The notes under the pieces are model-generated. The model was given only the letters and a program-made list of their open reading frames with translations, made no database searches and had not been told where the DNA came from. A stretch of 33,017 nt of DNA from the NCBI GenBank assembly GCA_001931875.2, contig MSJH02000451.1, positions 1-33,017 of the forward strand. Reading direction: 5' to 3'. The translations under genes and the position numbers were made by a program. Position 1 is the stretch's first letter. Each line of letters starts with the position of its first letter. The DNA comes from Byssochlamys sp. IMV 00236 (lineage: Eukaryota; Ascomycota; Eurotiomycetes; Eurotiales; Thermoascaceae). This document shows positions 4,249 to 32,200 of the stretch, piece by piece.

Positions 4249-6232
4249 TTCTTTCTGAGGCTTTATTTTGTCCCATTTTCATACATGCCGTAATTACTCC
4301 TCCATCTATGATTGGCCCATTCCAGCTTGAGCTTTTTATTAATTTTGACTGTTCCCCAGTGACAGCCTCCAACATGCTGTAAAACTAATGGCTGTGGTAT
4401 GTTTTTTTTTTTTTTTTTTGTCTTTTGGGCCTTCAAATGGCAAGTATAAAAGCGGAGGCTCGATAAAGTTGCCGTTGGGCAGTAATGTTACGTTGCATGG
4501 ATAAACTACAGTTGGGACTCTATAGGTATCCACTGCAAGTTGAGCGCATTGTGGCGTACTGAACCAATACTCGAGTGGACAAAAGCTTACTTTTCTTCCA
4601 CTGTCTATGGCTTCAAGTCCAGACGAGACGGACCTTTCAAGTCTTTCGAGATCAAACATTGTTGCAAAATATTTTGAATATATGCCTCTGTTCTTGTAAA
4701 AGCATTGAAGCATATCCCACTTAACTTCCCAAAATAAGTCTTGATTGCCTTTGATATTTGCTGCCAGGGATCTGAATCCACAAAAGCCATTTGCACCTAC
4801 GTCTGCTGTTTCAAGGATACATTCTCTAGGAATGTCAGGATGAACAAAAAAAAAGAGTTTTCATCGTCATATTTCATTCTATGGAAAATAGTCAATATTT
4901 TAGCGACAATAATGCTTTGCTTTTATAATACTTTTTCTTTTCGTTGTTAACGATTCTATCTTCTAAATCTCTTTTGAATGGCCAGACGTAATCAATGGTA
5001 CCATACTGGGAATTACGCTGCTTGCTGTCTGTTCTCGATAAAGCAGTTTCGCTTTCTTTAGCTTTTTTTTCAGCTATTTCAAAACTGGAGAGCAACCATT
5101 TTCCCGCTGTTGATTTCATGCGACCTTTAACGATAGCTGCAGCTACATAATCAACATCATCTATATCCTGCTGCTTTATACTTCTCTAATGACCTTGTCA
5201 GATCATCAAGTAAATCCTCTCTTTGTTGATCATTGTGTAAGAAGGATAGCTTTTCCCAGAGTTTTTCATTAAAGGAGATCTTCCTTCTTTGGGCTGTTTC
5301 TTTTGATCCTTCAGTCTTCATCTGATCCACTTTATAACCGCAAGCTCATGTAAGTAAGAACATTATTTTAATGATCAACAAATACCTCTGTTGTAGTTTA
5401 AAAACCACCTACTGGGTATGTATTGGAGATCCACAGCAGGCCCATCGGCTTTCATCATGTGTTGACAAGGAAGTCCAAAATTTAACCTTGAGAGGCAATC
5501 GCATTGATATTGTTCTCCGGGGATTTCGTTTTTCCAGGCAAGGTGTAACTCGAATCGTATTTTGTAAATAGCGAAAAAGCATACCTTTCCGAAAAGATGG
5601 CCTATAGCTTGAGTTTCTTTCTCGCTGAAAATCGGCGTGCTGTTCGTTTCTTTAAGCATCTCTTCTTTTTCCGATTCCATCTATAATACAACATTAGAAT
5701 TTTGTGACATTTTAGATAATTTCGCTTACGGATTTTTGCATAACCATATGGATTGCCTTAATGTTCTATAAAAGTGGATTTTCATACCAAAATACGTTTG
5801 TTGGTTTGGGACTTTTCAGAGAAAAAGTTTATAAAGCTCAAAAAAAGAGGGGAAAAAGAGAAAGAATGGCAGGTTCACATTTTATACCATAATTGTCAGA
5901 TCTGAGTCAATTGCAACTCAGTGATCTGACTGTGGACAGTTGTGATAGAGATATTCAACGACTTTGTTTAATTCAGCTATTTCTTTGCTCTTGATGAGGA
6001 AACATCCAGCTATTTCTGAAGTTAAATGCTTGGATACGTGCCAGACACAAAGCATATGGATGGACTTTGGGAGAATGTTCTCGATTGAGTTTATCAAAGC
6101 TTTCTGGTTATCCGTAACGAAAGCTTCTACGTTTCGTAGAATCCAGACCAGTTCATGCATGGTTTTATGCGCGAGAGCTGATTCAATATCGTTAACAGGC
6201 ACACCTGTCTTTTCGACAAGAGATATAAGCAA
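4249..6232 (-). pseudogene. Relic of a Mutator/FAR1-like transposase with a C-terminal OTU-type cysteine peptidase domain
   Basis: Broken minus-strand frames line up in the order of a MULE/FAR1-like transposase. (1) 6232-5918: end of a DDE-type domain, with FVTDNQKALINSIENILP followed by LCVWHVSKHL, typical of MULE transposases. (2) 5680-5375: a SWIM-type zinc finger, C-x-C ... GLPCQH. (3) About 5340-4892: a charged linker with a KGR..STA motif and SSFEIAEKKAKE. (4) About 4805-4290: an OTU-like peptidase with the Asp/Cys box DVGANGFCGFR at 4769-4804 and the distal catalytic His in GGCHWGTVK near 4350-4370. Stops and frameshifts separate the blocks, and the N-terminal part with the first catalytic Asp is missing. 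An 18-T run at 4402-4419 shifts the frame between the OTU core and its His. No terminal repeats or target-site duplication were found. Family placement rests on remembered motifs. Confidence 0.75.
4402..4419. repeat. Poly(T) run of 18 inside the OTU domain relic
   Basis: Eighteen consecutive T (poly-A on the coding strand) turn the minus-strand frame into a Lys run and desynchronise it from the downstream GGCHW motif. This is either a slippage expansion that inactivated the gene or an assembly length error. Confidence 0.8.
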
Positions 6233-6407
6233 ACCTCATTACGAACAGATAAAATATACTGTTTTCAGAAAGAAATGCGTCGCGCTGACTTGTATTATAA
6301 AAATGCCATCAAAAGATCTCCTTGGCCCTGTCCCCGGGGTGGATATTAAGATTCCGCAGGCTTGGTTTTTTTTTGTTTGGTTTTACTTCTTTCAAAAAAA
6401 AAAAAAA

Positions 6408-6934
6408 ATGAGTCTGATTGACCTTGGCGACATTACACCAAACAACTTGGGTCAAGTCAGAGCGCTTCACAAGACCTTATTCCCTGTTAGCTACAGTGAC
6501 AACTTTTATAATGAATTATTAGAAGCCGGTGAATTTGCAAAGTTGGGTACATGTCGATATTTATATATATATATATATATATAAAAGAAACTAAACACAT
6601 TATAGCTTACTATAATGACGTCTGTGTTGGTGTTGTCTGTTGTCGTAAAGAAAAAGACGAAGATTTACCCGAGAAATACAAACTGTACATGATGACATTA
6701 GGTGTGCTGGAACCCTATCGTCGATTGGGATTAGGTACACGCTTGGTTGAACACATTTTGAAGCAATCTCAACTCTCAACGGATATCTCTCGTGTTTATT
6801 TGCACGTTCAAGTGACAAATGATGCTGCAGTTGACTTTTATAAAAAGAATCAATTTGAAGTGAAGAAGACAGAAAAAGACTATTATAAGAACATAGAACC
6901 TAGAGATGCATACCTTTTATCAAAAGAAATCTAA
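6408..6934 (+). CDS. NAA50: N-alpha-acetyltransferase 50 (GNAT family, NatE catalytic subunit)
   Basis: NAA50 acetylates N-terminal Met of nascent or completed proteins using acetyl-CoA, and in many eukaryotes it binds the NatA complex at the ribosome. Two exons, 6408-6546 and 6606-6934, give 155 aa. The junction G|GTACAT ... TTATAG|CT restores KLAYYNDVCVG, matching the family's KLAYFND block. Landmarks are LGDITPNNLGQVRALHK, FPVSYSDNFY (peptide-binding loop), YMMTLGVLEPYRRLGLGT (acetyl-CoA pyrophosphate loop, R-R-x-G-x-G), YLHVQVTNDAAVDFY and the Tyr-rich DYYKNIEPRDAY. The length fits a single GNAT domain without the metazoan tail. The ATG follows a 14-A run. The 59-bp intron contains a (TA)n tract. 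The transposase relic ends less than 180 bp upstream, so the promoter must be short or lie within it. Confidence 0.95.
6562..6583. repeat. (TA)n microsatellite inside the NAA50 intron
   Basis: About 11 TA dinucleotides occupy more than a third of the 59-bp intron, between the GTACAT donor and the TTATAG acceptor. Length changes here would alter intron size but not coding. Confidence 0.85.
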
Positions 6935-7819: not shown

Positions 7820-9439
7820 ATGTTGCCCTGAATTTCCTTTAATAAAATTAAATAAAACCCAAAATTTCTCTCTGTTAAATTGCTCCCCTCCCTACATCAT
7901 CTGGCATAGATATCACGTGTCATTATCGTACCCATACAATGACATCAGACCAAACTAATAGATTTCGTTGCAGATAAATATAGATTGGTTGTGGAGTTTA
8001 ATCAAGAAGAAATTACCAATTGCTTCCATGAAAGATTCGAAAAGTGAGAACGAAGCATGAGATGAGTGCTTACACTTGCATAATCAGCATTTGAGTTGCA
8101 CGACATGTTTAAGAGAGAGATATACAATAAAATACTAAACCGGTTAGCAATCACATTCCTCTATTTTTGACGAATCTACAAGTTTAGCCAGTAGGTGAGC
8201 TTGTTGCTGGTAAATACATATGGATTAAAGGCTTCTTCAAAGTGGAGATGTAAAGATGTCATTAATCTGAAAGGTGTATACTGAAGCTTATTTTTTAAAT
8301 GATAGTTTATTAAGAACATTACTGCCTATAGAATGAAGTAACCTATGCTGAGACTTAGCGATAATAGCTAATTAGATTATGCAGTTCGGCTAATGTTGGT
8401 TACCTAAAAAAGATGAACAGCAATATCGTTCCAAGATGTCGTATTTTGTATATTTTGTATTGTAAATTTTTGAATTAGAAGAAACTGTTCAACCATTCAA
8501 CAAATGTCCATGCCAAGAGATTTGCCCTTTTTCAGAAAATTAGTGCTTCTTTTAACGGCATTAATCTCGCGTACATGCTGAAGGTGCAGAATTCTATAAT
8601 TTGGACTAATATGGTACAACTAATAAGGGCAATTGACTACAAAGTTGTTTATCGAACAATTGTACTAAATCAGTCGCATCTATACTTTGACCAAAACGAT
8701 TATAAAGAGGCTAACAAAAAAAAACAAAATGCAGAAGAAATATGCAAAATTGCAGATCATAAATAATGCAATGTCTGGTTATAAAACGTTATTCTTTTTG
8801 GTTATTCTTAAAGGTAATACAAGCTTATGCTTCTTCAATGGTACCTGAAAATGTGTTTAAATAAGGTCGGATAAACTAAACTTTTTTGTCCTCAGGGGGT
8901 AAACGTTTCTCTCTGTCTCTTCTGTTACACCAAAAAGCGCCGAACCGACATCTCCTTTAATTTGCCCTGCACTGGTTGGCATATGTGTATTACGAATCAA
9001 GTGACGGAGGAATTGATGTCGTATCCGTCATTGGTCCCTCAGACCAAGCCCAAAGATAGGCATCAAACAGCCAAAATGGGATTTTTTATCGTGAAAGCTG
9101 AAGCTAAATATAAAGTTGCATGTAAAACCTTTTCATTATTAAGTAAAGAAATTCACCAACAAGTCTCGTAAAAAAAAATGAAGCCTGTCGCGCAGTAAGG
9201 TTGGTTAATGATTGTCATTATTTGTATCTGTCAGCAATCAAGACAAGATTAGGAATAGGATATGGTGACATGCTTCTTTACAAGACTACAAACTATAAAA
9301 GGATCTGTTGCCATCTCTGCAAGAGAATAACCTGTCTAGACCTAATAAGTCAAGGTTGAAGATAATAAAAACAATAGCAATGAATGTAATATAATGAAGA
9401 CTGTTTTCAGTTATGGATAATGCTTTTTTTTTTTTTTAT
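7820..9439. other. Gene-poor region with short coding-like fragments, no confident gene
   Basis: AT-rich with scattered stops. Three stretches read like protein but have no start or context: about 7972-8049 (+) after a TTGCAG acceptor-like site (reads RLVVEFNQEEITNCFHERFEK); 8575-8766 (+), 63 codons, Asn/Lys-rich; and 8962-9171 (+), 69 codons ending in LLSKEIHQQVS. None shows a family motif, so I treat them as decayed coding or chance. No tRNA-like A/B boxes were noticed. Confidence 0.35.
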
Positions 9440-9445
9440 ATGGAC

Positions 9446-9960
9446 GCCGCTGCGTTCATTTCCTTGACCCTTTCCCAATCTTGGCCCACTTTGAATATAG
9501 GATTCTGGAAAAAAGAAATAAGCGATTAGGATTAAATCTGCGATATTAAATTTTATTGGGTGCAGTTTTTTTTTCGGTAAAACAACGGATCTTGATATCA
9601 CGGAACTACGACCATTTATTATATATTCTTATCCATTGCTGCAGAGTAAAGGGCTGGTCAGAAGAAGAACCTAACCTATCCTATGAGTCATAGCTACTAT
9701 AAAAAGAATATTCATCAAATAGGCCTGCTCTTCCTTTTTGTTCTTCTTTCTGGTCAAAGCGCGCTCTTCCAAAAAAATTTTCTTGGGATCCATGTGAGAC
9801 ATATCTCCGAAAGTGTACAGAAAATAATAAAAAACCTTCGGCCCTTTGATCCCACTTTTCTCAGTGGATAAAGATAGCTGCTCATATTCCAGGTTTATAA
9901 ACCCACCCTTTTCTATAATTGTATACACGTGAGGTTGTACATCTGATCGTTGAAACAGCT
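9446..9960 (-). pseudogene. Possible decayed multi-exon gene (unidentified)
   Basis: Several minus-strand segments look coding but are broken by stops. About 9800-9695 reads FGRARFDQKEEQKG then GLFDEYSFYSSYDS. After a TAG, about 9670-9620 reads SSSDQPFTLQQWIRIYNKW. After a good acceptor (TTTTTTCCAG) at 9506, the frame reads NPIFKVGQDWERVKEMNAAASI and stops. The composition and splice-like acceptor suggest an old gene, possibly a small co-chaperone-like or mitochondrial protein, but I cannot name it and the alignment of pieces is inferred. Confidence 0.3.
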
Positions 9961-10330: not shown

Positions 10331-10401
10331 TGCACAATACGTTTAGGCATCAATTCATAAATAACTCACACACAAAAGGAGAAGAATAACAGTTGGAGAG
10401 G

Positions 10402-11634
10402 ATGAAACGACAAATGATGAAACTAGTACCAAAATGTCACCAAATTCAGTACATCTTTATCGCTGCGCTATTGCTCATCGACTTTATCATCATACAAGCA
10501 CCCACTATCATACCTCGATCTATATTAGCAGCATTACTCTTATCTTCATTTTGGATTCCTTATATCAGAAAGTTCACTTTACCCGCTTTACCCATCTTTA
10601 CTTGGTTAATTACTTTTTACGCCTGTCAATTTATTCCTATTGATTATCGTCCTAATCACATCTTTGTAAATTTATTACCAACCCTTGAGAGAATTCTTTA
10701 TGGCGCCAACTTATCCGAAGTGATCTCAAAGCATACACACCCTGTATTAGACATTCTTGCTTGGCTACCTTATGGTGTCATTCATTTCAGCTTTCCTTTC
10801 ATTTTGGCATTGTTGCTCTTTGTCTTTGGCCCACCAGGTTGCCTCAAAGTCTATGGTGCCGCGTTTGGTTATATGAACCTCGCTGGTGTGCTTACTCAAC
10901 TACTATTTCCAAATGCATCTCCATGTAATGTTTCAAATAGACATCTTTTTTACTTCTTTTGGCTAATCTTTTTTTTAACAAAAATAGGGTACGAGCTCAG
11001 CTACGGTTCAGCACCTGCAGATTACTCTATTCCTGGTGAACCTGGTGGATTGATTCGTATCGACAAGATCCTTGGCTTAGATTTGTACGGCTCTACCTTT
11101 GGATCCTCTCCGCTTGTGTTTGGCGCCTTTCCCTCCCTTCACTCCGGTTCTGCAACCATTGAGATGCTTTTCGTGGTCTATCTTTGTCCTAAACTCAAGC
11201 CATTAGCTATTGCTTACGTGATGTGGATGTGGTTTGCTACGATGTATCTTACTCACCACTACATGATTGATCTTGTGGGTGGATCAATTTATGCTATTGT
11301 TACATTTGCTGTAGCTCAAAATTTTTTACCCTCAATTAATCCTGAATGTCGTACTCGAATGCAATATCTTGGCGCAACCAAATTAAGTATTAGATCACTA
11401 ATCTACAGCATTGAACATGACGACGTGGTGCTAGAACAGATAACAGGAGATGAAGAAGCAGCCTTACTGAAACATAGACCAGAACCACTTGTTCTGTCAT
11501 CCGATGCTTATAATACAGCCTACGATGACACTTACTCACCCACCTCATCCGTCTATACTTCCGAGCCTGACTCACCCGTTACACCTCATTCACCTATACT
11601 CAACCAGTTTGACTTTACGAAATATTCTAATTAG
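10402..11634 (+). CDS. AUR1: Inositol phosphorylceramide synthase catalytic subunit (AUR1-type, PAP2 superfamily)
   Basis: Transfers phosphoinositol from phosphatidylinositol to ceramide in the Golgi, a step essential for fungal sphingolipids. Two exons, 10402-10924 and 10988-11634, give 389 aa. The intron is 63 bp, GT-AG, without stops and in frame, so the unspliced frame also reads through. Splicing restores SPWYELSYGSAPADYSIPG, the AUR1-type block PWYE...(A)PA.Y...G.PGGL.RIDK, whereas the unspliced insert is a Phe/Leu-rich 21-residue run. Other landmarks are GAFPSLHSG (catalytic His motif) and TMYLTHHYMIDLVGGS (second catalytic His and Asp). About six to eight hydrophobic helices are present, and the C-terminal tail is Ser/Thr/Pro-rich. 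A TTG at 10393 is in frame, but the ATG at 10402 is the natural start. Family residues that bind aureobasidin A cannot be assessed by eye. Confidence 0.95.
   Translation: MKRQMMKLVPKCHQIQYIFIAALLLIDFIIIQAPTIIPRSILAALLLSSFWIPYIRKFTLPALPIFTWLITFYACQFIPIDYRPNHIFVNLLPTLERILYGANLSEVISKHTHPVLDILAWLPYGVIHFSFPFILALLLFVFGPPGCLKVYGAAFGYMNLAGVLTQLLFPNASPCNVSNRHLFYFFWLIFFLTKIGYELSYGSAPADYSIPGEPGGLIRIDKILGLDLYGSTFGSSPLVFGAFPSLHSGSATIEMLFVVYLCPKLKPLAIAYVMWMWFATMYLTHHYMIDLVGGSIYAIVTFAVAQNFLPSINPECRTRMQYLGATKLSIRSLIYSIEHDDVVLEQITGDEEAALLKHRPEPLVLSSDAYNTAYDDTYSPTSSVYTSEPDSPVTPHSPILNQFDFTKYSN
10925..10987 (+). other. 63-bp in-frame, stop-free intron of the IPC synthase gene
   Basis: Donor GTAATG follows CCA T and acceptor AAAATAG precedes GG TAC, so the split codon T|GG is the Trp of the conserved PWYE motif. 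The length is a multiple of three with no stop, so retention would insert 21 hydrophobic residues in the lumenal/membrane loop. Confidence 0.85.
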
Positions 11635-11924
11635 AAGCTTCCCTTTACTTTTTTATACTTTTTCTATATATGGAATTATTCCTATATTCTTTGTGCATAT
11701 ATGTATACATGTATTTCTTTACTGCATATTACTCTTTACTATTACTACTATTACTACTATTACTAATGCTAATACTAATTCCATGTACCTATAATAAATG
11801 TATTACTAATTCCTGTTCTTCCATCATTCGGTCTTTTATTATTTGCTATAGCGGACTACTGATTCACTCGTTGCTTGGTTACCATATTTGAATAAGCTCA
11901 AAACATAAAACTACTTTCCTTTGA
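11635..11924. other. 3' flank of the IPC synthase gene with a trinucleotide tract
   Basis: AT-rich region with an (ATT/ACT)n-like trinucleotide run around 11738-11775 and an AATAAATG polyadenylation-like signal near 11793. No gene is seen. Confidence 0.45.
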
Positions 11925-12449
11925 CAACAACACAAAACACGATGTAGCAGAAAATTAAGGTACGGAGTTGCCAACGACAACATTTTTTTTTTTTCCCACT
12001 CTAGAACACCATACAGGAAAAGGAAAACTCTGAATTCTGCACCGAAGCTCTGGGGAGAAGGTCAAAGAGGACTGTCCTACGTTGCTCAAATGCGCATATA
12101 CAGTATCTTTGACTTAGACTGTGACCCTATCACAGAACCACTTTCTATCTTTCGACACATGAAGCGCAAATGGCTCAAGTCACTCTTAAACGTGATGCTG
12201 GGAACCATTTCGTTTACTTCGATTGACCTCCCACCAACAACAGCATCAGACAATGTCTTTCGATTGTGGGGTCTGACGATGGGCATGACCAAGGATATTA
12301 TCAAGCTGGTCGATACAAAGGAATCGTTCTTTTATAAACTGACGACTCAGAGTCCGCGATTCTCAAGGGTGGATATCGGCTGGTTCACGATGTTGATTAC
12401 CTATGCCAAAGTCTATTGGAAGAGGATATGTCACAAGAATGTGAGGTAA
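11925..12449 (+). pseudogene. Open frame ending in a duplicated Nudix C-terminus (chimeric partial copy)
   Basis: The plus-strand frame is open from 11925 to a TAA at 12447-12449, but its first ATG is at 12090. From 12129 onward it is identical, as far as the eye can tell, to the last 106 codons of the Nudix gene on the opposite strand at 13496-13816. Upstream (about 12003-12128) the frame reads RTPYRKRKTLNSAPKLWGEG and continues, with no Nudix box. A pyrimidine-rich acceptor (TTTCCCACTCTAG) at 12004 could start an exon. So the duplicated tail lacks the catalytic domain and is joined to unrelated or heavily diverged sequence. Alternatives are a transcribed chimeric gene with an unseen first exon, or a dead fragment kept identical by gene conversion. 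Similar wording just outside the identity edge (LDCDPITEP against LDYSPITEP) hints at older homology. Confidence 0.6.
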
Positions 12450-12465
12450 GGAAACTGAGGAAAGG
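12129..12465 (+). repeat. Left arm of a 337-bp inverted repeat
   Basis: The reverse complement of 13480-13816, with no difference seen by eye. It spans the Nudix C-terminal coding segment, the stop codon and 16 bases of 3' flank (to CTGAGGAAAGG). The outer edge is at ATCACAG; outside it the two sides keep only weak similarity. Confidence 0.93.
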
Positions 12466-13479
12466 AGGGAAAGATGGTTAAATAAGAGCCCTTTGGCCAC
12501 ATATAAATACTATGGGCTCCCTTCAAACTTTCCATTTTATTTTTTATCTTTTTGACAACTAATTGAACATAAACATTTCTTACAAGCTCCAAGAATAAAA
12601 CAAAGAGCCTGTTACAATAGGCATCCGACATATTACCAGATGTAAATAAGAACTTTTCGTATGTCTCAATTGCCGCGCAAGGAAGATGGCAATCAAGATT
12701 GTGCCCTACTTATACCGTCACTTTCCACGGTACACAAGGTCCCTTTGTCGCCATTTGATGCCAAGAAAGTTGTGTGTAAAAAAAAAAAAAGACACACATG
12801 AACGTTTGTTTTTGACTGACATCATTTCTGTGCTCAACCCTTTCTTGGGGCTATTTGTGGTCTAGTATGACTTGTATATAGATTATTCGAATTTGATCAT
12901 ATTGTAGAGACTTTCATTTCAAGTGAAGTTCTTTATTTATACAATCCTCAACAGTCCCATATTGCCAACAAGTGGTCTTCATTCTACAATGTGAACATAT
13001 TATACTGAGAGCTATTATTCGTCTGGAGCATAGTGCTTGCTGGATTTGAGTAATACAAATGGTCACTGCCAGCCGTAGGCTTGCCTTCTTGAATGTGAGC
13101 GCGAAAATTATGTTTGCCAACAAACATATATCAGTGTTCCAACTTTATTGTTTCCATGGCAGCTGAAACAAGACGCAATTTCAAAATATGAGCGCGCTAA
13201 TAAGAACGGTAGACTTGGCCACTATGAATTGTATCATTGACCAGAAACAAGTTACTCCTGTTTCTAATACCACATTACTTTTTAACAACGTAATTACTTC
13301 ATTTTCAGGTTAACGAAGACGCTTTATTATCAACAAGAGCAGACAGGCTCTGAAGCACATGCTAATGGCAATAGCTGACCTAATGGAGTTCCAATAGATA
13401 TTATCCCACTCATTCTCTAACCTGCAGTGTGTGTGTATAGTCAAAATGTCCCTTAGTGTACGCATACATCTTTTTTTTC
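12466..13479. other. 1014-bp spacer between the inverted-repeat arms, one 46-codon small ORF
   Basis: This would form the loop of any hairpin made from the two arms. It contains a TATA-like ACATATAAATA at about 12499-12509. An ATG-initiated frame of 46 codons at 12661-12801 (+) (reads MSQLPRKEDGNQDCALLIPS then on to a Lys run) has no recognised homologue. Everything else is stop-rich. The small ORF is at best weakly supported. Confidence 0.4.
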
Positions 13480-13816
13480 CCTTTCCTCAGTTTCCTTACC
13501 TCACATTCTTGTGACATATCCTCTTCCAATAGACTTTGGCATAGGTAATCAACATCGTGAACCAGCCGATATCCACCCTTGAGAATCGCGGACTCTGAGT
13601 CGTCAGTTTATAAAAGAACGATTCCTTTGTATCGACCAGCTTGATAATATCCTTGGTCATGCCCATCGTCAGACCCCACAATCGAAAGACATTGTCTGAT
13701 GCTGTTGTTGGTGGGAGGTCAATCGAAGTAAACGAAATGGTTCCCAGCATCACGTTTAAGAGTGACTTGAGCCATTTGCGCTTCATGTGTCGAAAGATAG
13801 AAAGTGGTTCTGTGAT
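13480..13816 (-). repeat. Right arm of the 337-bp inverted repeat (inside the Nudix gene)
   Basis: Covers residues 193-298 of the Nudix protein, its TAA and 16 bases downstream. It pairs with 12129-12465. The two arms point tail to tail. Confidence 0.93.
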
Positions 13817-14618
13817 TGGGCTGTAGTCCAACACTTGGCTTGATAAAAAGAAAGACAACGGTACCCCTATGGGTATATTAGCCATCTTTTTGTTTTGTTT
13901 TGATCAGCTATTTACATCTTACTGCAGCTACTTCAGATGTCTGAAGTTCAAATGGTGGTGATTCAGGTACTATTTGCAGATAAACTGTATGCATATTATT
14001 TTAGCAAAACCATGTCTCTTTGAAGGGATTATCATTTACCATAAGGAACAAGGATCATCAATAACTTATTATCTCTTATAGATGAAATCTCCCGTTCGTC
14101 CAGTTGACCCACAAGCAGGTAATCACCACTTTTTAAATCGACTCCAATCTCTTCGCGTACCTCTCGACACACCGTTTCCTCATCAGTCTCATCCTTTTCA
14201 TTTTTTCCACCTGGAAAAGCAACATGACCAGACCATCTTTTTGAACAATTAGATAAGGCTTTTTTCGTTTCATAGACTATTATACCTATCTCCCTTTCTT
14301 GTTGCTCGCTGCATAAACAGAATCTCAGCTTCGCCTTCCTGTACCCATGATTGATCAAAAAACTCTTCCAAAGTTCGTGGTTTTTGGACCTCTGTAGGGA
14401 TCCTCTTCTTTGGACAGTGCCAACGAAGGATAGCTGCGACCACACCACGTCGAGGTTGGTCAGAAGGTGAAGGTATGCGGTAAGGCTCCCTTTGACTTAG
14501 AGTGAAGCAAAGCTTCTTGAGTGCTACAAAAAAAAAACCAGCAAATTATCAAGGTTTGCACATGAGATTCGTTATCTTGCCTAAAAAACACATTACCATC
14601 GACATTCGCATTTGTCAT
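13496..14618 (-). CDS. Nudix hydrolase, CoA-diphosphatase-like (PCD1/NUDT7-8 type)
   Basis: Likely hydrolyses CoA or a related nucleotide diphosphate. Five exons give 298 aa: 14597-14618, 14286-14523, 14040-14236, 13916-13984 and 13496-13866. All are GT-AG and in phase. Exon 1 encodes MTNANVD. The Nudix box G-x5-E-x7-REV-x-EE-x-GV is at residues 97-119 (GKNEKDETDEETVCREVREE), preceded by RRGVVAAIL, EILFMQRATRKGDRWSGHVAFPGGK and followed by EVAAVRWVPLSFFL. The KR..(H/S)..G.VAFPGG context is that of CoA diphosphatases. The C-terminus has FRLWGLTMGM, the usual end of that fold, then a 40-residue tail. A peroxisomal signal is not obvious (ends KNVR). Exon 4 has two possible donor/acceptor pairs, both in frame; WVPLSFF is restored only by GTAAAT ... 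CCATAG. The last exon carries the inverted-repeat arm. Confidence 0.88.
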
Positions 14619-14712: not shown

Positions 14713-14913
14713 CTATTGATTTCTCAGATGGGACAAGACCTTATCAATGCTCATACTTTCGGAACCAAGCGCACCAGTGAGACCCGATTTAGCATCTTGT
14801 GCAAGCGTGATAACTTCATCTTTACCGCCTCTTGCTTCTAGTTGTTGATTGGTTAATATAACAGCAGCTTGAATTGAGTAAATGAGACATAAAGTAAACA
14901 AGAGAACCTTCAT
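14713..14913 (-). CDS. Small putative secreted protein, 66 aa
   Basis: A single-exon frame starts at ATG with a classical signal peptide (MKVLLFTLCLIYSIQAAVIL, cleavage probably after the Ala-rich end). The mature part of about 48 residues is polar, with Gly/Ser-rich LTGALGSESMS and a C-terminal amphipathic segment DKVLSHLRNQ. There is no Cys in the predicted mature part, so it is not a defensin-type protein. A TATATAA-like box lies 45 bp upstream. It sits between the Nudix gene and two other small putative secreted genes on the same strand. Family and function are unknown. A frame of this size could occur by chance, but the signal peptide and promoter position favour a gene. Confidence 0.55.
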   Translation of the reverse strand: MKVLLFTLCLIYSIQAAVILTNQQLEARGGKDEVITLAQDAKSGLTGALGSESMSIDKVLSHLRNQ

Positions 14914-14957
14914 TTTGAGGGATTAAAAGATAAACAAAAAGGAAAGAAGTCAGTCAT

Positions 14958-20229: not shown

Positions 20230-22760
20230 CTTCAATCTTTCTTGGAAATACGGCTCTCTTAATATAGGTATTTACCATAGATGCCTCCGAAATTTTATAA
20301 TCAGTTTTGAAAACCACAGTTTTAGGCAATCGCTAATGGTTGTCATTACCTTAGACTGCATAAAGTAAGGAATGGGGGTATTGCCTAACATTGATATAGA
20401 AATCGAAAAGAATAGATAATAATAATACATTTTCAGGTAAGTTATAAAGTGTATTGCTATCAAGCTTTTTATTTGCCTCAATATATGGAACCAAGGCGGT
20501 GAAAAAGGCTTTCTGTCCTTTATCAGCTCCGTGTGGGCTAACATTAGGTTCATATGGTTTGTCATCAATTCTAGTCATGTCTTTATACTTGAATATAACA
20601 TTAACTAAATGGATATGCAATTTAGGCATAGGATCAACACCAACCAAAATTTTATCTTTATACGACCTAATGGAATTGTCAATGACACCAAACCTTATGT
20701 TGTATTGAATGCTCAACACCATCATACTCGACAGAAATGAAGTCAGTGGTTTGTAAACGTGCGATATTTCTACCGTCAGCAAGGGATAAGATGATCAGGA
20801 GCTGTATGGAGCGGGACATTATGCTTTGTAGCGTAATTTTTATCAATGACGGAAACATTTGCGTCTGTATCCATAATACATAATGTTTGTATATCGTTAA
20901 TAATAATGAGCGAAACTGGGTGAGTAAGCTACACTATCTGAATTAAATGGGTTGTTAATGCCCCAGTAGTATTCTTTTTCAAGGCATACAAATAAAAGTC
21001 ATTATCATAATTTTCATTAAAGATTTATTGTCACTGAAATGTTCAATGATATTTTAATCTAAATCATTCATTGCTTGTTAATATTCGTTATTAGAATAAT
21101 CAACGTCAGACAGATCAGCAGAAGGATTATTTCTAAAAGTGTCAAAAAAGGAGCTGTTAGTAGAATGCCCCATAATGCCATGTTTATTGATAGTTAAGGA
21201 GTCTGTAACATGACTGACATCGAGATTACCAGCAGCAAATGAAAGATGTTTGGTATTTACCTTATGTTGAAGATGTTTCTTTCTTTCCTCGTATACCCTT
21301 GAATGTTCAGAGATACAAATCTTCTTTGCACAAAGATAATTTATTTCTGCCTTTGTCAACTTGTGGGACAAATCCTTCAATTTCTCCACATCCATCACAG
21401 CTTTACTGATACCTTGTTTGCTGTCGTCAAAGAAACTGTGATTCACCTTTCTTTTCTTGGATTATCGTCTGGTTGGTCAGTTTTAGCTTTCTTCTGTCAG
21501 ATAGAACGCTAGATTTTTCCTAATGCTTGTTCCCAAGAAATGATGTTTGCGATCAAAACTTCTTTCAAAGCAGAAAAGTTCTTGGGGACATAGTGAATAT
21601 AAGCTTTGTGAGCAAAAGTACTCTCTCCCGTTGTTGAATTGGGGTTTGAATACGTCTTTGTATGAAGATAGTGTTCCATCAGCGTCTTGTCAACAATATC
21701 TCTAAATTCCTTGGCGAATAAAGAGAGGATGAAATGACAGAACAAAAGCAAATTATCCTCGGTATTAGCATTTGAAGCAACGGCGCAGAGGCGAAAACGG
21801 TCCAAGTACTCGGCCAAAGACTCGTTATTATTTTGGCGTAAGTAAAGAAGTAACTCGTCACGCTGGATGACATTTGCCTCGGAAGCAAGATCGAATCATG
21901 TTATGATATCTTTAGCAACAGATCAAGACATCTTCTTCGTTTGTTTTCAATAGGTCCCTTGATATTCTGATTGAACCAGCTGAAGTGCAATGTGTCCTTT
22001 TCAAAACGCGTTTCAAGATGAAAAAACCAGTGTTTTTCTACATCTACCTGATTTTTCTTGTAAATCTTCTCAAAACGTCTGATGAACGTATCAAATGATT
22101 TGTCATTACCAATTTGGATGCTACTGCTATTGCCAAGGCTTAAGACAGAAGTAGGTTTAATCTCAAAAACAGGAAGATTGGATGCCACAATTGCCGTATG
22201 ATCTTTAGTCATAGTTTGTCCATCGACAAAACCAGATCTGATTGCCAGCAATTTTGACTGAATAAAAGCGTTGTTAAGGTTCATATTCTGTTCGGAAATG
22301 AACATTTCATTTGTAGAAATCAAAGTATCCTTTAAATAGTTAATTTCCAACCTGATGGTCTTCAATTTGAGTTCGAGGAGCTCAAGATCAACAGCAGTCT
22401 CAACAGGAGTGCTGAGGATCTCTTGCTCTTTCAAACAAAGTGTATCGAGCTTAGACTTGATGTCAGAAACACGAACTTGCAAAGCAGAATTATTTCCGTT
22501 AACTACAAGATCTTGAAACTAGGTGGGTCTGAACTACTTCCTAAAGATGTAGTACCCTAAATGACATGACCCAGGAACATGCTTGTTGCAAGTTGATGGT
22601 TGACTGTGGAGATGTTATCCCTAAGAGAGAGGTTTGACATGGCAGCAGAGCTACCGTTGTCAGAGGGTGAAGTAACGTGCATGGCAACGTCCATGTGCTC
22701 ACCCAAAGAGGGAGAAGCACTGGAACAGTTTCAGTGGACTTTACAGAAGTAGAATTCATT
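20230..22760 (-). pseudogene. Decayed Gag-protease-RT remnant of an LTR-type retrotransposon
   Basis: Minus-strand frames follow the order of a Ty3/Gypsy-like element. From 22760, a Ser/Thr-rich Gag N-terminus (SPSDNGSSAAMSNLSL); 22482-21901, a coiled-coil then a capsid-like region with FDTFIRRFEKIY and FNQNIKGPIENK; 21850-21509, NNNESLAEYLDRFRLCAVAS; 21446-21078, a His/Cys-containing linker; about 20870-20600, a retropepsin-like segment around MDTDANVSVID; and about 20460-20270, the start of a reverse-transcriptase-like region (PIPYFMQSKVMTTISDCLK). Several stops and frameshifts separate the pieces. The protease motif reads DTD where DTG or DSG is expected. The RT catalytic motif, integrase and LTRs were not found. 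The element is truncated and inactive; class assignment rests on motif order. Confidence 0.7.
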
Positions 22761-29208: not shown

Positions 29209-32200
29209 TTAAACGACTGTATCTTTACCTTCTTTAGCAGCTAACTCTTTCTCAACTTGCTTCATCTTTTCATACAAGTTAGTCAGGTCTTCGAAAGTTA
29301 CGTTTCCTGGGAAATACTTTGTAGTATATTTCCAGAGAGACTGTGCATAATTGGGTTCATGAGGTCGCCTGGCAATCTGCTCTTCAATATGTTTGCCAAT
29401 AGCGCTAATGCACTCTCTGATCATTTTTGCCTTCTTAGCTCCTTCTTCCTTTCTTGAATCGTATTTCAAGCGATGTAGATGTCGCTCAACAGGAACCATG
29501 CTACGAGATGTCTGACTAGAGCTTTCTTCGTTGCTCTTTCTTCTTCTTTCACTTTCATGGCGCTTAGCAGATCTTTCTTCTGTATCATCTGATCTCTGCT
29601 TTCTCTTGCGATCATAGCTACTACTACTACTACTCTGACCCTGACTATGACTATTACTACTACTATGACTATGACTATGGCTATGACTACTACGACTACT
29701 ATGATTATGGCTGCTATGGTTATTGCTCTTTTGTCTATGGTCTTCAGGGGTATTTCTTGAAATAGCAGATTTGCTGGAAGAAGCAGCTCCACTCTGCATT
29801 TGCTTTGAAGATGATGATGATGATGATGATGATGTATGCTTATGTTTAGACGGAGAAAGATTGCCGCGGTTTGAAGAAGTGTTTGAATGCTTAGATGAAT
29901 TTGGTACTCGCTTTGTGATTGAACCTTTTTTCTCTCTCCTCAATTCTTCTTCTTCAGCCAATATCTTCAGCATCTGGTCTGCGCGACGTACCAAATGAAT
30001 AGCTTTTGGCGTTCTCTTATCTTCATCGTTTGTTGAAATAAAAAACTTATCCTGGAGCCCCAGGGGAGTATCAGCTTGTATCATTTGCCAGGACCCAAAT
30101 CCATACTTATGCACGCCCACCAAGAGCATAGCATCTTCTTTGGGCCCCCAGTTACAGGACCAGCCTTGCACGCGCTTTGCTAAGAGAGGTACACGGAATT
30201 TGGTCATGTCTGTCATCAGGGCCATTCTTCTCGCCAGTATCTTCATGTCATGATGTCTTTGTAGCACCTGGCCAGCATTCACACTTTGGATGTCCTTCCA
30301 GGTAAATAGAATGGCCTTTTGCTTGGTATGTCGAAGTTCTTTCAGGAGATCAGAATAGGCGACCTGTTTGTTCGCTGGAAGACTCTTGGCTTTCAGGATT
30401 TGCTCACGCACCTTTGCTTTACATTCAGAAATTAAATCGTGATAAAGGTCAACGATCGTGTCCTTCTTCTTGGCACCAAGGTCAAAGTCAGACGAGACCT
30501 CATCATAACGATCTTCAAGATCGCCATACTTCAATACTGCACGAACAACCGCGCGACGATCACGCTCAGAAAGCTCACTTGAGTGTCTTTTGTTGGCGGA
30601 TGAAGAGCCCGTCGTTGGTCGCTTGCGTTTCTTGGTTCCCTTGACGATTTCGCCTTCTTCTTCCTCTTCGTTCTCATCAGGATGGCTTTCGCTATACGTT
30701 ACACGGCCCTTCTTGGCAGCACGGCTATACATGGCCTCAAGCTCTCGCTTGTCTTGTTCTTCTTTCACTTTCTGTACTTCGGATTGAGGAATGATGTCCT
30801 CCCAGCTCAGGTCGTCAGCCGTTCCTCCATAGTCTGTAATCTTGAACTGCGCCAAAAAGTCATCAGAGCCAAGCGCGGTGCCATCGCCTTCGTTGATTGT
30901 TTCAGTTTGTTCAGCACGAGCAAGGATATCATCAAGATCCATATCATTTAGTTGTTCTGTATGCTCGTTTGCCTGGAACATATTTTTAGCACCAAACTTG
31001 AGAATGGCAGAGAGCTCTTGGTTCTTGAAAGGCAAATCGCGGTTTTTGCCAGAAGCGGTCTTTAATGAATGTTCGGCGAGTAAGGAGTAGCCAGAGGTGT
31101 CCATTTGCTTGATAATACAGTATTCCAATACCATCTTTCTTTTGGCGCGTTCAATGATATCTTCTTCCATCGTTCCCTTGGACACAAATCGGTACACGTT
31201 TACAGACTTGGTTTGACCAATACGATGAGCACGAGACATGGCTTGGAGATCGTTCTGAGGGTTCCAGTCAGAGTCAAAGATGATGACTGTATCGGCCGTG
31301 ACAAGATTGATGCCCATACCACCAGCACGGGTAGACAACAAGAATACAAAGTCTGGGCTATCAGGGGCATTAAAATGTTCAATGGCCTTGTTACGTTCTT
31401 CAGGTTTAGTAGAGCCATCAAGACGCTGGAATGGATGGCCTCTGAGCGACATATAGTCAGAGAGGATGTCTAGCATCATGACCATTTGGGAAAAGATGAG
31501 TACGCGGTGACCATCTGACTTGAGACGCGTTAACAGCTTGTCTAATAAAACCATCTTGCCACTGCTTTCGACGAGCCCTCTTAGTTGTTCAATTTTATCA
31601 GTTGTACGCTTTTCAGCATCAGGAAACAGGAATGGGTGGTTGCTTGCCTTCTTGAGTTCAACAGCAATGTTGAGCCATTGTCGTTTGTTTTCACAGCTAC
31701 TTTCCAAGAAATCAAAGTTTCTGGTCAAGATGCCTTTATAATAAGATTTTTGCATTTCGCTTAACTGGACACGCAGGATGCGTTCTGTCTTGCTTGGTAA
31801 TGATTTTTCAACGTCCTTCTTTAATCGACGCAACATGATGGATTTCAATTTTTCATGAAGTGCCTTGATCTTTTCTTCTTGATTGGCGTCTTCCACATCA
31901 AGGTCAAAGTTATAATGGCTCAAGTCCATACTTGGCATCAAAAAGCGAACAAGGGCCAGGAGTTCCTTAACACTGTTTTGCAGGGGCGTACCAGTAATCA
32001 AGAGGCGGTTGGTAGTTGAGAAGCCAGAGAGGGCTTCATAGAGCTGTGAGTCAGAGTTCTTTAAACGATGGGCTTCGTCCACAGCAAGGTATTGCCAGCG
32101 CATGTTACCAAGAACGTCACGATCCTTGAGGACGATTTCATATGTAGTGATGAGAATATTAAACTTGATTTTGTTTGTATCCGAAACGTAAAACTCTGTA

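Follow-up and report, generated by a model that had tools for sequence, protein, structure and literature searches.

An old inverted duplication of part of a Nudix exon, probably homogenised since, in an R. microsporus-like genome

A Nudix hydrolase gene in an R. microsporus-like genome shares 337 bp, without a single difference, with an inverted copy that lies between it and a convergent PAP2-family gene. The left junction of this copy is common to another lineage, one lineage-specific residue occurs in both copies, and the flanks have diverged faster than the arms. We therefore consider it very probable that the locus is an old inverted duplication of part of an exon, whose two copies were later homogenised by gene conversion or template switching. 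The analysis was carried out on a stretch of 33,017 nucleotides (contig MSJH02000451.1), called the window below, and the features discussed are collected in Table 1.

Table 1. Position and nature of the features at the inverted repeat and around it
Feature	Positions in the window	Strand	Description
PAP2-family gene	10390-11634	+	runs towards the Nudix gene, with the left arm in between
Open frame, left flank into left arm	11925-12449	+	174 aa from stop to stop; junction DCDP/ITEP as in P0121
Left arm	12129-12465	+	partial copy of Nudix exon 5 (residues 193-298), continued by 20 nt of intron 5 that include its GTAAGG donor
Spacer	12466-13479	.	1,014 bp; includes the terminal Nudix exon together with the remainder of intron 5
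Spacer stretch	12587-12649	+	matches the final 20 residues and stop of P0122; 5/21 codons changed
Right arm	13480-13816	-	part of the Nudix gene itself: exon 5 at 13816-13500, then 20 nt from the start of intron 5
Nudix hydrolase gene	13310-14618	-	six exons, 334 aa plus stop
Nudix exons	14618-14597, 14523-14286, 14236-14040, 13984-13916, 13866-13500, 13421-13310	-	spliced model
Intron 5	13422-13499	-	78 nt, GT-AG, GTAAGG...CTGCAG; first 20 nt inside the arm
Last Nudix exon	13310-13421	-	hydrophobic C-terminal tail, LENEWDNIYW...IIKRLR, then stop

The inverted repeat is exact and ends abruptly

An earlier note on this DNA had described two arms without mismatch, separated by 1014 bp, and both statements are borne out: exact alignment of the left arm with the reverse complement of the right arm gives 0 mismatches in 337 positions, and the measured spacer has the same length. 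When the arms were compared together with their flanks, similarity stopped abruptly on either side of both. The arm match was reported as 341 columns at 99.7% by BLASTN and as 352 columns at 98% by the repeat search, both longer than 337 because of a few agreeing bases past one mismatch. By simple arithmetic, a perfect match of 337 bp far exceeds chance. No diverged similarity was found beyond the arms in four comparisons of flanks and spacer halves, whose scores were equalled in 142, 9, 77 and 41 of 200 shuffles, the lowest count (9/200) being due to a poly-T match. These shuffles rule out a larger, diverged inverted duplicate enclosing the arms.

A search of the 47.4-Mb, 840-contig genome found the arms in two copies only, with no third copy, and the left flank, the spacer and the PAP2 gene in one copy each, all of these counts being lower bounds. 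With each of the last three found just once, this genome as searched offers no empty site. Self-BLAST of 20 other stretches of the same genome, 161,778 bases in all and between 1.2 and 10 kb long, yielded no inverted repeat of at least 60 bp (0/20); the base rate obtained in this way is rough, and one of the 20 stretches had been picked for its distant Nudix relative, i.e., not blindly. Elsewhere in the assembly, three Piwi-domain matches score identically on contigs C265, C266 and C708, two of them at the near-equal contig positions 30430 and 30432, and RdRP pieces on contigs C227 and C250 also score identically, which seems to point to duplicated contigs or haplotypes. Despite these apparently duplicated contigs, no second copy of the inverted-repeat locus was found in the assembly (again a lower-bound count).

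Other repetitive sequence was noticed as well. Tandem 12-bp units (CAAGAAGAGGAC) occupy positions 1-170 at the start of the contig and read, by eye, as a Gln-Glu-Glu-Asp repeat. On another contig (C70:10001-19827) a direct repeat of 734 aligned columns and 98% identity, at 5695-6424 and 9098-9827, reaches the contig end. The minus strand of the window at 20351-22518 carries a run of open frames, two with weak, sub-cut-off similarity to Gag models (21509-21895, PF03732, 17.5 bits vs 24.1; 21901-22518, PF19317, 13.8 vs 25.9) and two with none; to judge by these similarities, the run is possibly a decayed retroelement.

The right arm belongs to the penultimate exon of the Nudix gene

The spliced Nudix model aligns with P0001 of R. 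microsporus end to end and without gaps, 324 of 334 residues being identical. A 302-aa draft model, in which intron 4 was misplaced and which ended at an apparent stop, had been used for the alignment of nine orthologues and for the identities of ~95% to P0001, 66% to P0002 of R. arrhizus and 44% to a more distant Nudix relative, the one such relative that a protein search of the genome found on another contig (counts from this search are lower bounds). The ~95% identity to P0001 marks the genome as R. microsporus-like. The Pfam family PF00293 was matched in the window by the open reading frame 14032-14496, with 36.6 bits vs a cut-off of 21.1, and in P0001 with 52.2 bits, above the curated cut-off; none of the nine NCBIfam matches of P0001 reached its cut-off (e.g., CoA pyrophosphatase NF007980, 29.3 vs 134).

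Each arm is made up of 317 nt of exon 5 followed by the first 20 nt of intron 5. The right arm had been described as the last exon of the Nudix gene, with residues 193-298, a stop and 16 bp of flank. Its place inside the gene and the residue range stand, but it consists of the penultimate exon and 20 nt of intron, and the stop seen in it comes from reading through the intron. All nine aligned orthologues run on past this apparent stop, and a GT-AG intron leads into the exon at 13421-13310, so that the right arm is excluded as the last exon. The C-terminal tail encoded there is present in 9/9 aligned orthologues, and its best 19-residue mean hydropathy is 2.0. Such retention suggests that the tail matters.

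Close by, upstream of the Nudix gene, the minus strand carries at 14713-14922 an open frame of 69 residues with a start that by eye resembles a signal peptide (MKVLLFTLCLIYSIQAAV...), for which no Pfam family was matched. In P0017 of R. arrhizus a different, secreted-looking leader is fused to the Nudix start, and the Nudix neighbourhood may be conserved, if this fusion is a guide.

The left copy arose before two lineages separated

With the left-flank frame as query, a search returned a single protein, P0121, which crosses the same junction as the window, DCDP/ITEP, flank included. This protein of 157 aa comes from an ENA source whose longest contig has 953 bases and which is probably metagenomic. 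Its start differs and is not present in the window, and over the left flank the two are set apart by two one-base indels and one 6-base deletion. The other end of the left copy is represented by P0122, a protein of 116 aa from R. microsporus and the examined representative of a cluster of 6 member sequences. It reads MKRRW...HKNVR, then FQEYNKGFVTIGIQHITRCK, and the FQEYNKGFVTIGIQHITRCK stretch aligns to the plus strand of the window at 12587-12649. In R. microsporus, the left copy thus gives way to the spacer end that also adjoins it in the window, with unchanged orientation; P0122 presumably contains an intron. No Pfam family was matched by P0122. In the window the aligned stretch is interrupted by an in-frame stop, so that it is not conserved as coding sequence. 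The records of P0122 and P0001 give an equal length for the longest contig (3,552,033 bases), which is consistent with both genes lying on one chromosome, where they would be adjacent.

A further search with a two-sequence alignment, which covered predicted proteins within a length range, gave 15 proteins at E <= 1, namely P0121, P0122 and 13 proteins at 41 to 57% identity. Seven of these 13 were inspected (including P0014 and P0015); all look like Nudix orthologues or fragments of them, and the left flank is absent from all seven.

The left junction in P0121, together with the order from left copy to spacer in P0122, places the duplication before the split of the lineages. The recent duplication maintained by conversion that the earlier note had offered is therefore upheld as to conversion, since the arms agree within each lineage at residue 206 (see below); it fails as to its age, a recent duplication being excluded by the left junction that the other lineage has in common with the window.

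The arms appear to change together and the flanks change faster

Residue 206 is Lys in both arms of the window and Arg in the other lineage, in the right copy (P0001) as well as in the left copies (P0121 and P0122). Outgroups, read by eye, are mixed at this residue, with Lys in P0003, P0004 and P0015, Arg in P0014 and Thr in P0002, and so the branch on which the change occurred is not fixed; whichever branch it was, the change affected both copies of one lineage. This residue is the only lineage-specific change common to the two copies, and parallel mutation at it is conceivable.

Changed positions number 12 in 67 flank codons vs 1 in 106 arm codons (Fisher p = 5e-5), or 9 in 67 flank codons when substitutions only are taken (p = 9e-4), all of these counts being a minimum of protein-visible changes. 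The upstream flank differs from P0121 by 7 changes in 46 codons (4 substituted codons and 3 indel events), a count that starts after the five initial, non-aligning residues of P0121, and the downstream flank differs from P0122 by 5 changes in 21 codons. The arm count of 106 codons rests on P0121, as P0122 is without the first ten arm residues. If the left arm had diverged like its flanks (5.5% as a minimum), it should have accumulated about 9 substitutions along the branch of the window alone, whereas the arms differ by 0 (Poisson 1e-4).

The arms of the window are identical also at silent sites and over the 20 intron bases, so that selection on a protein is insufficient to explain their identity; this within-lineage identity of silent sites is seen for the window only. 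Two points must be set against the reading of homogenised arms. Short-read assembly can blur a repeat of 337 bp towards identity, and selection on an unrecognised product of the left copy could also explain the slow protein change in the arm.

A functional exon probably overwrote its inverted copy

As to the molecular process, its direction, its frequency and the lack of function of the left copy, we infer the following course of events. In an ancestor common to the strain of the window and another R. microsporus lineage, a segment comprising most of Nudix exon 5 with the adjoining 20 nt of intron 5 would have been duplicated in inverted orientation into the gap that separates the PAP2 gene from the convergent Nudix gene. 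After the split, exchange between the arms by ectopic gene conversion or by template switching would have made the copies identical again at least once, and probably repeatedly, with the flanks and spacer left to drift. Sequence would probably have passed from the functional exon to the left copy. Given diverged flanks and identical arms, the simplest account is that the functional exon overwrote the left copy one or more times since the split. The left copy itself probably lacks a function, since the start of P0121 does not occur in the window, the left flank carries indels and the stretch matching the end of P0122 is interrupted. It is most likely a pseudo-exon that is kept fresh by its proximity to the gene.

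Alternative explanations of the repeat

The assembly is fragmented into 840 contigs, and a chimeric fold-back join could produce an inverted copy of this kind. However, the junction recurs in P0121, the order from left copy to spacer recurs in P0122, and none of the 20 other stretches holds an inverted repeat of at least 60 bp. As both proteins carry the left copy, the assembly artefact that the earlier note had named as a possible refutation has next to no probability. It is scarcely more credible that a small protein-coding gene of the P0122 type, held by purifying selection, makes up the left copy. There is a protein record in R. microsporus, in the six-member cluster of which the representative was examined, and the frame over the junction is open both in the window and in P0121. 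Yet the window is without the start seen in P0121, its flank carries the two one-base indels and the 6-base deletion, the downstream stretch is interrupted and P0122 belongs to no matched Pfam family; moreover, selection on a protein would not hold silent sites and 20 intron bases identical. Slightly less improbable, but still very unlikely, is that the arms serve as a switch, in which homologous recombination between them flips the 1,014-bp spacer and thereby alternates the hydrophobic-tailed Nudix protein with one that takes its terminus from the other end of the spacer, behind the retained splice donor, tailed and tail-less forms occurring in the population; read-through would then also give a 337-bp hairpin. 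The arms do bracket the last exon and both contain the splice donor of exon 5, the tail is hydrophobic in comparison with the P0122 stretch that follows the left copy (-0.17), and conversion implies that the arms interact. In yeast, spacer inversion accompanies the homogenisation of arms (PMC8604942). Against such a switch, the spacer has a single orientation, in the window and as deduced from the R. microsporus proteins (few genomes), the tail is retained in every aligned orthologue, and the alternative terminal stretch is broken by a stop in the window. No parallel to spacer inversion was found in the excerpts of PMC3213143.

Silencing, the other reading of the earlier note, is the least improbable of the alternatives, although we still regard it as unlikely. 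Read-through transcripts of the Nudix gene would fold into double-stranded RNA of 337 bp, small RNAs made from it by Dicer would dampen the Nudix mRNA, and selection and conversion would keep the arms. The geometry of the arms allows a 337-bp stem, the arrangement has survived a lineage split, and the genome has matches above cut-off to Piwi (6/6), RdRP (11/13) and Dicer_dimer (2/2), these being domain matches only; exonic siRNAs are also reported to control mRNA levels in Mucor (PMC3720535). On the other side stand the AATAAA motifs. Three of the minus strand (13149, 12937 and 12541) separate the left arm from the Nudix stop, and two more of that strand occur at 13328, in the last exon, and at 11840, past the left arm; the plus strand has them at 11793, before the left arm, and 12594, just after it. 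With motifs at these positions, the simplest transcript ends would not place both arms in one RNA, but about one AATAAA site per kb is expected by chance, so that the polyadenylation argument is weak. In addition, RNAs transcribed from the two copies in their coding direction would not pair, both being sense to the Nudix mRNA. Hairpin silencing of the Nudix gene is unproven, and what would speak for it at this locus is the geometry of the arms and the presence of silencing genes. An old duplication with later homogenisation of its copies is the reading that we prefer.

Comparison with known systems

In the inverted-duplication model of plant microRNAs, an inverted partial copy of the target gene lies beside a spacer, and the present locus also has an inverted partial gene copy beside a spacer. 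Unlike in that model, it is known from DNA, and bringing both arms into one RNA would need read-through. In the related fungus Mucor, exons are targets of the silencing genes; however, most exons giving rise to ex-siRNAs there need RdRP genes, and the excerpts of that work make no link to an inverted repeat (PMC3720535).

Among systems with homogenised arms, the inverted gene pairs of Caenorhabditis described by Zhao et al. 2007 have arms far more alike within than between species; gene conversion is one proposed mechanism, although the authors incline to selection for a structural role (PMC1803023). Our locus is similar in that an inverted duplicate common to different lineages keeps near-identical arms while orthologous and spacer sequence diverges, and Caenorhabditis also has a convergent case with 100% arm identity (PMC1803023). 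In the worms, however, paralogous genes and intergenic regions were duplicated, as opposed to a 337-bp piece of exon and intron with one pseudo-exon here, and, unlike the authors, we do not favour structural-function selection for this locus (PMC1803023). Gene conversion from arm to arm likewise keeps the arms of the human Y-chromosome palindrome P6 near-identical, with rare inversions, although P6 has large arms on a sex chromosome and its conversion was followed in 378 Y chromosomes (PMC3723533), which is unlike the present case. In Saccharomyces cerevisiae, template switching between inverted repeats homogenises the arms and can invert the spacer; the repeats there are short, non-identical and located in coding DNA, as against a 337-bp duplicate here (PMC8604942). 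The excerpts of literature on small RNA and RNAi in R. microsporus, and on gene conversion and inverted repeats in Mucorales, contained no earlier report of the locus.

The locus thus joins a known class of gene-converted inverted repeats, and its distinctive traits are the partial exon with a pseudo-exon as partner and its occurrence in Mucorales. It also calls for caution, as a perfect inverted repeat does not prove a recent event. What it offers is a compact case of homogenisation from arm to arm in an early-diverging fungus, dated before the separation of two lineages, where one can easily distinguish the working exon from its pseudo-exon partner, and conversion, spacer inversion and hairpin formation can all be tested at one small locus.
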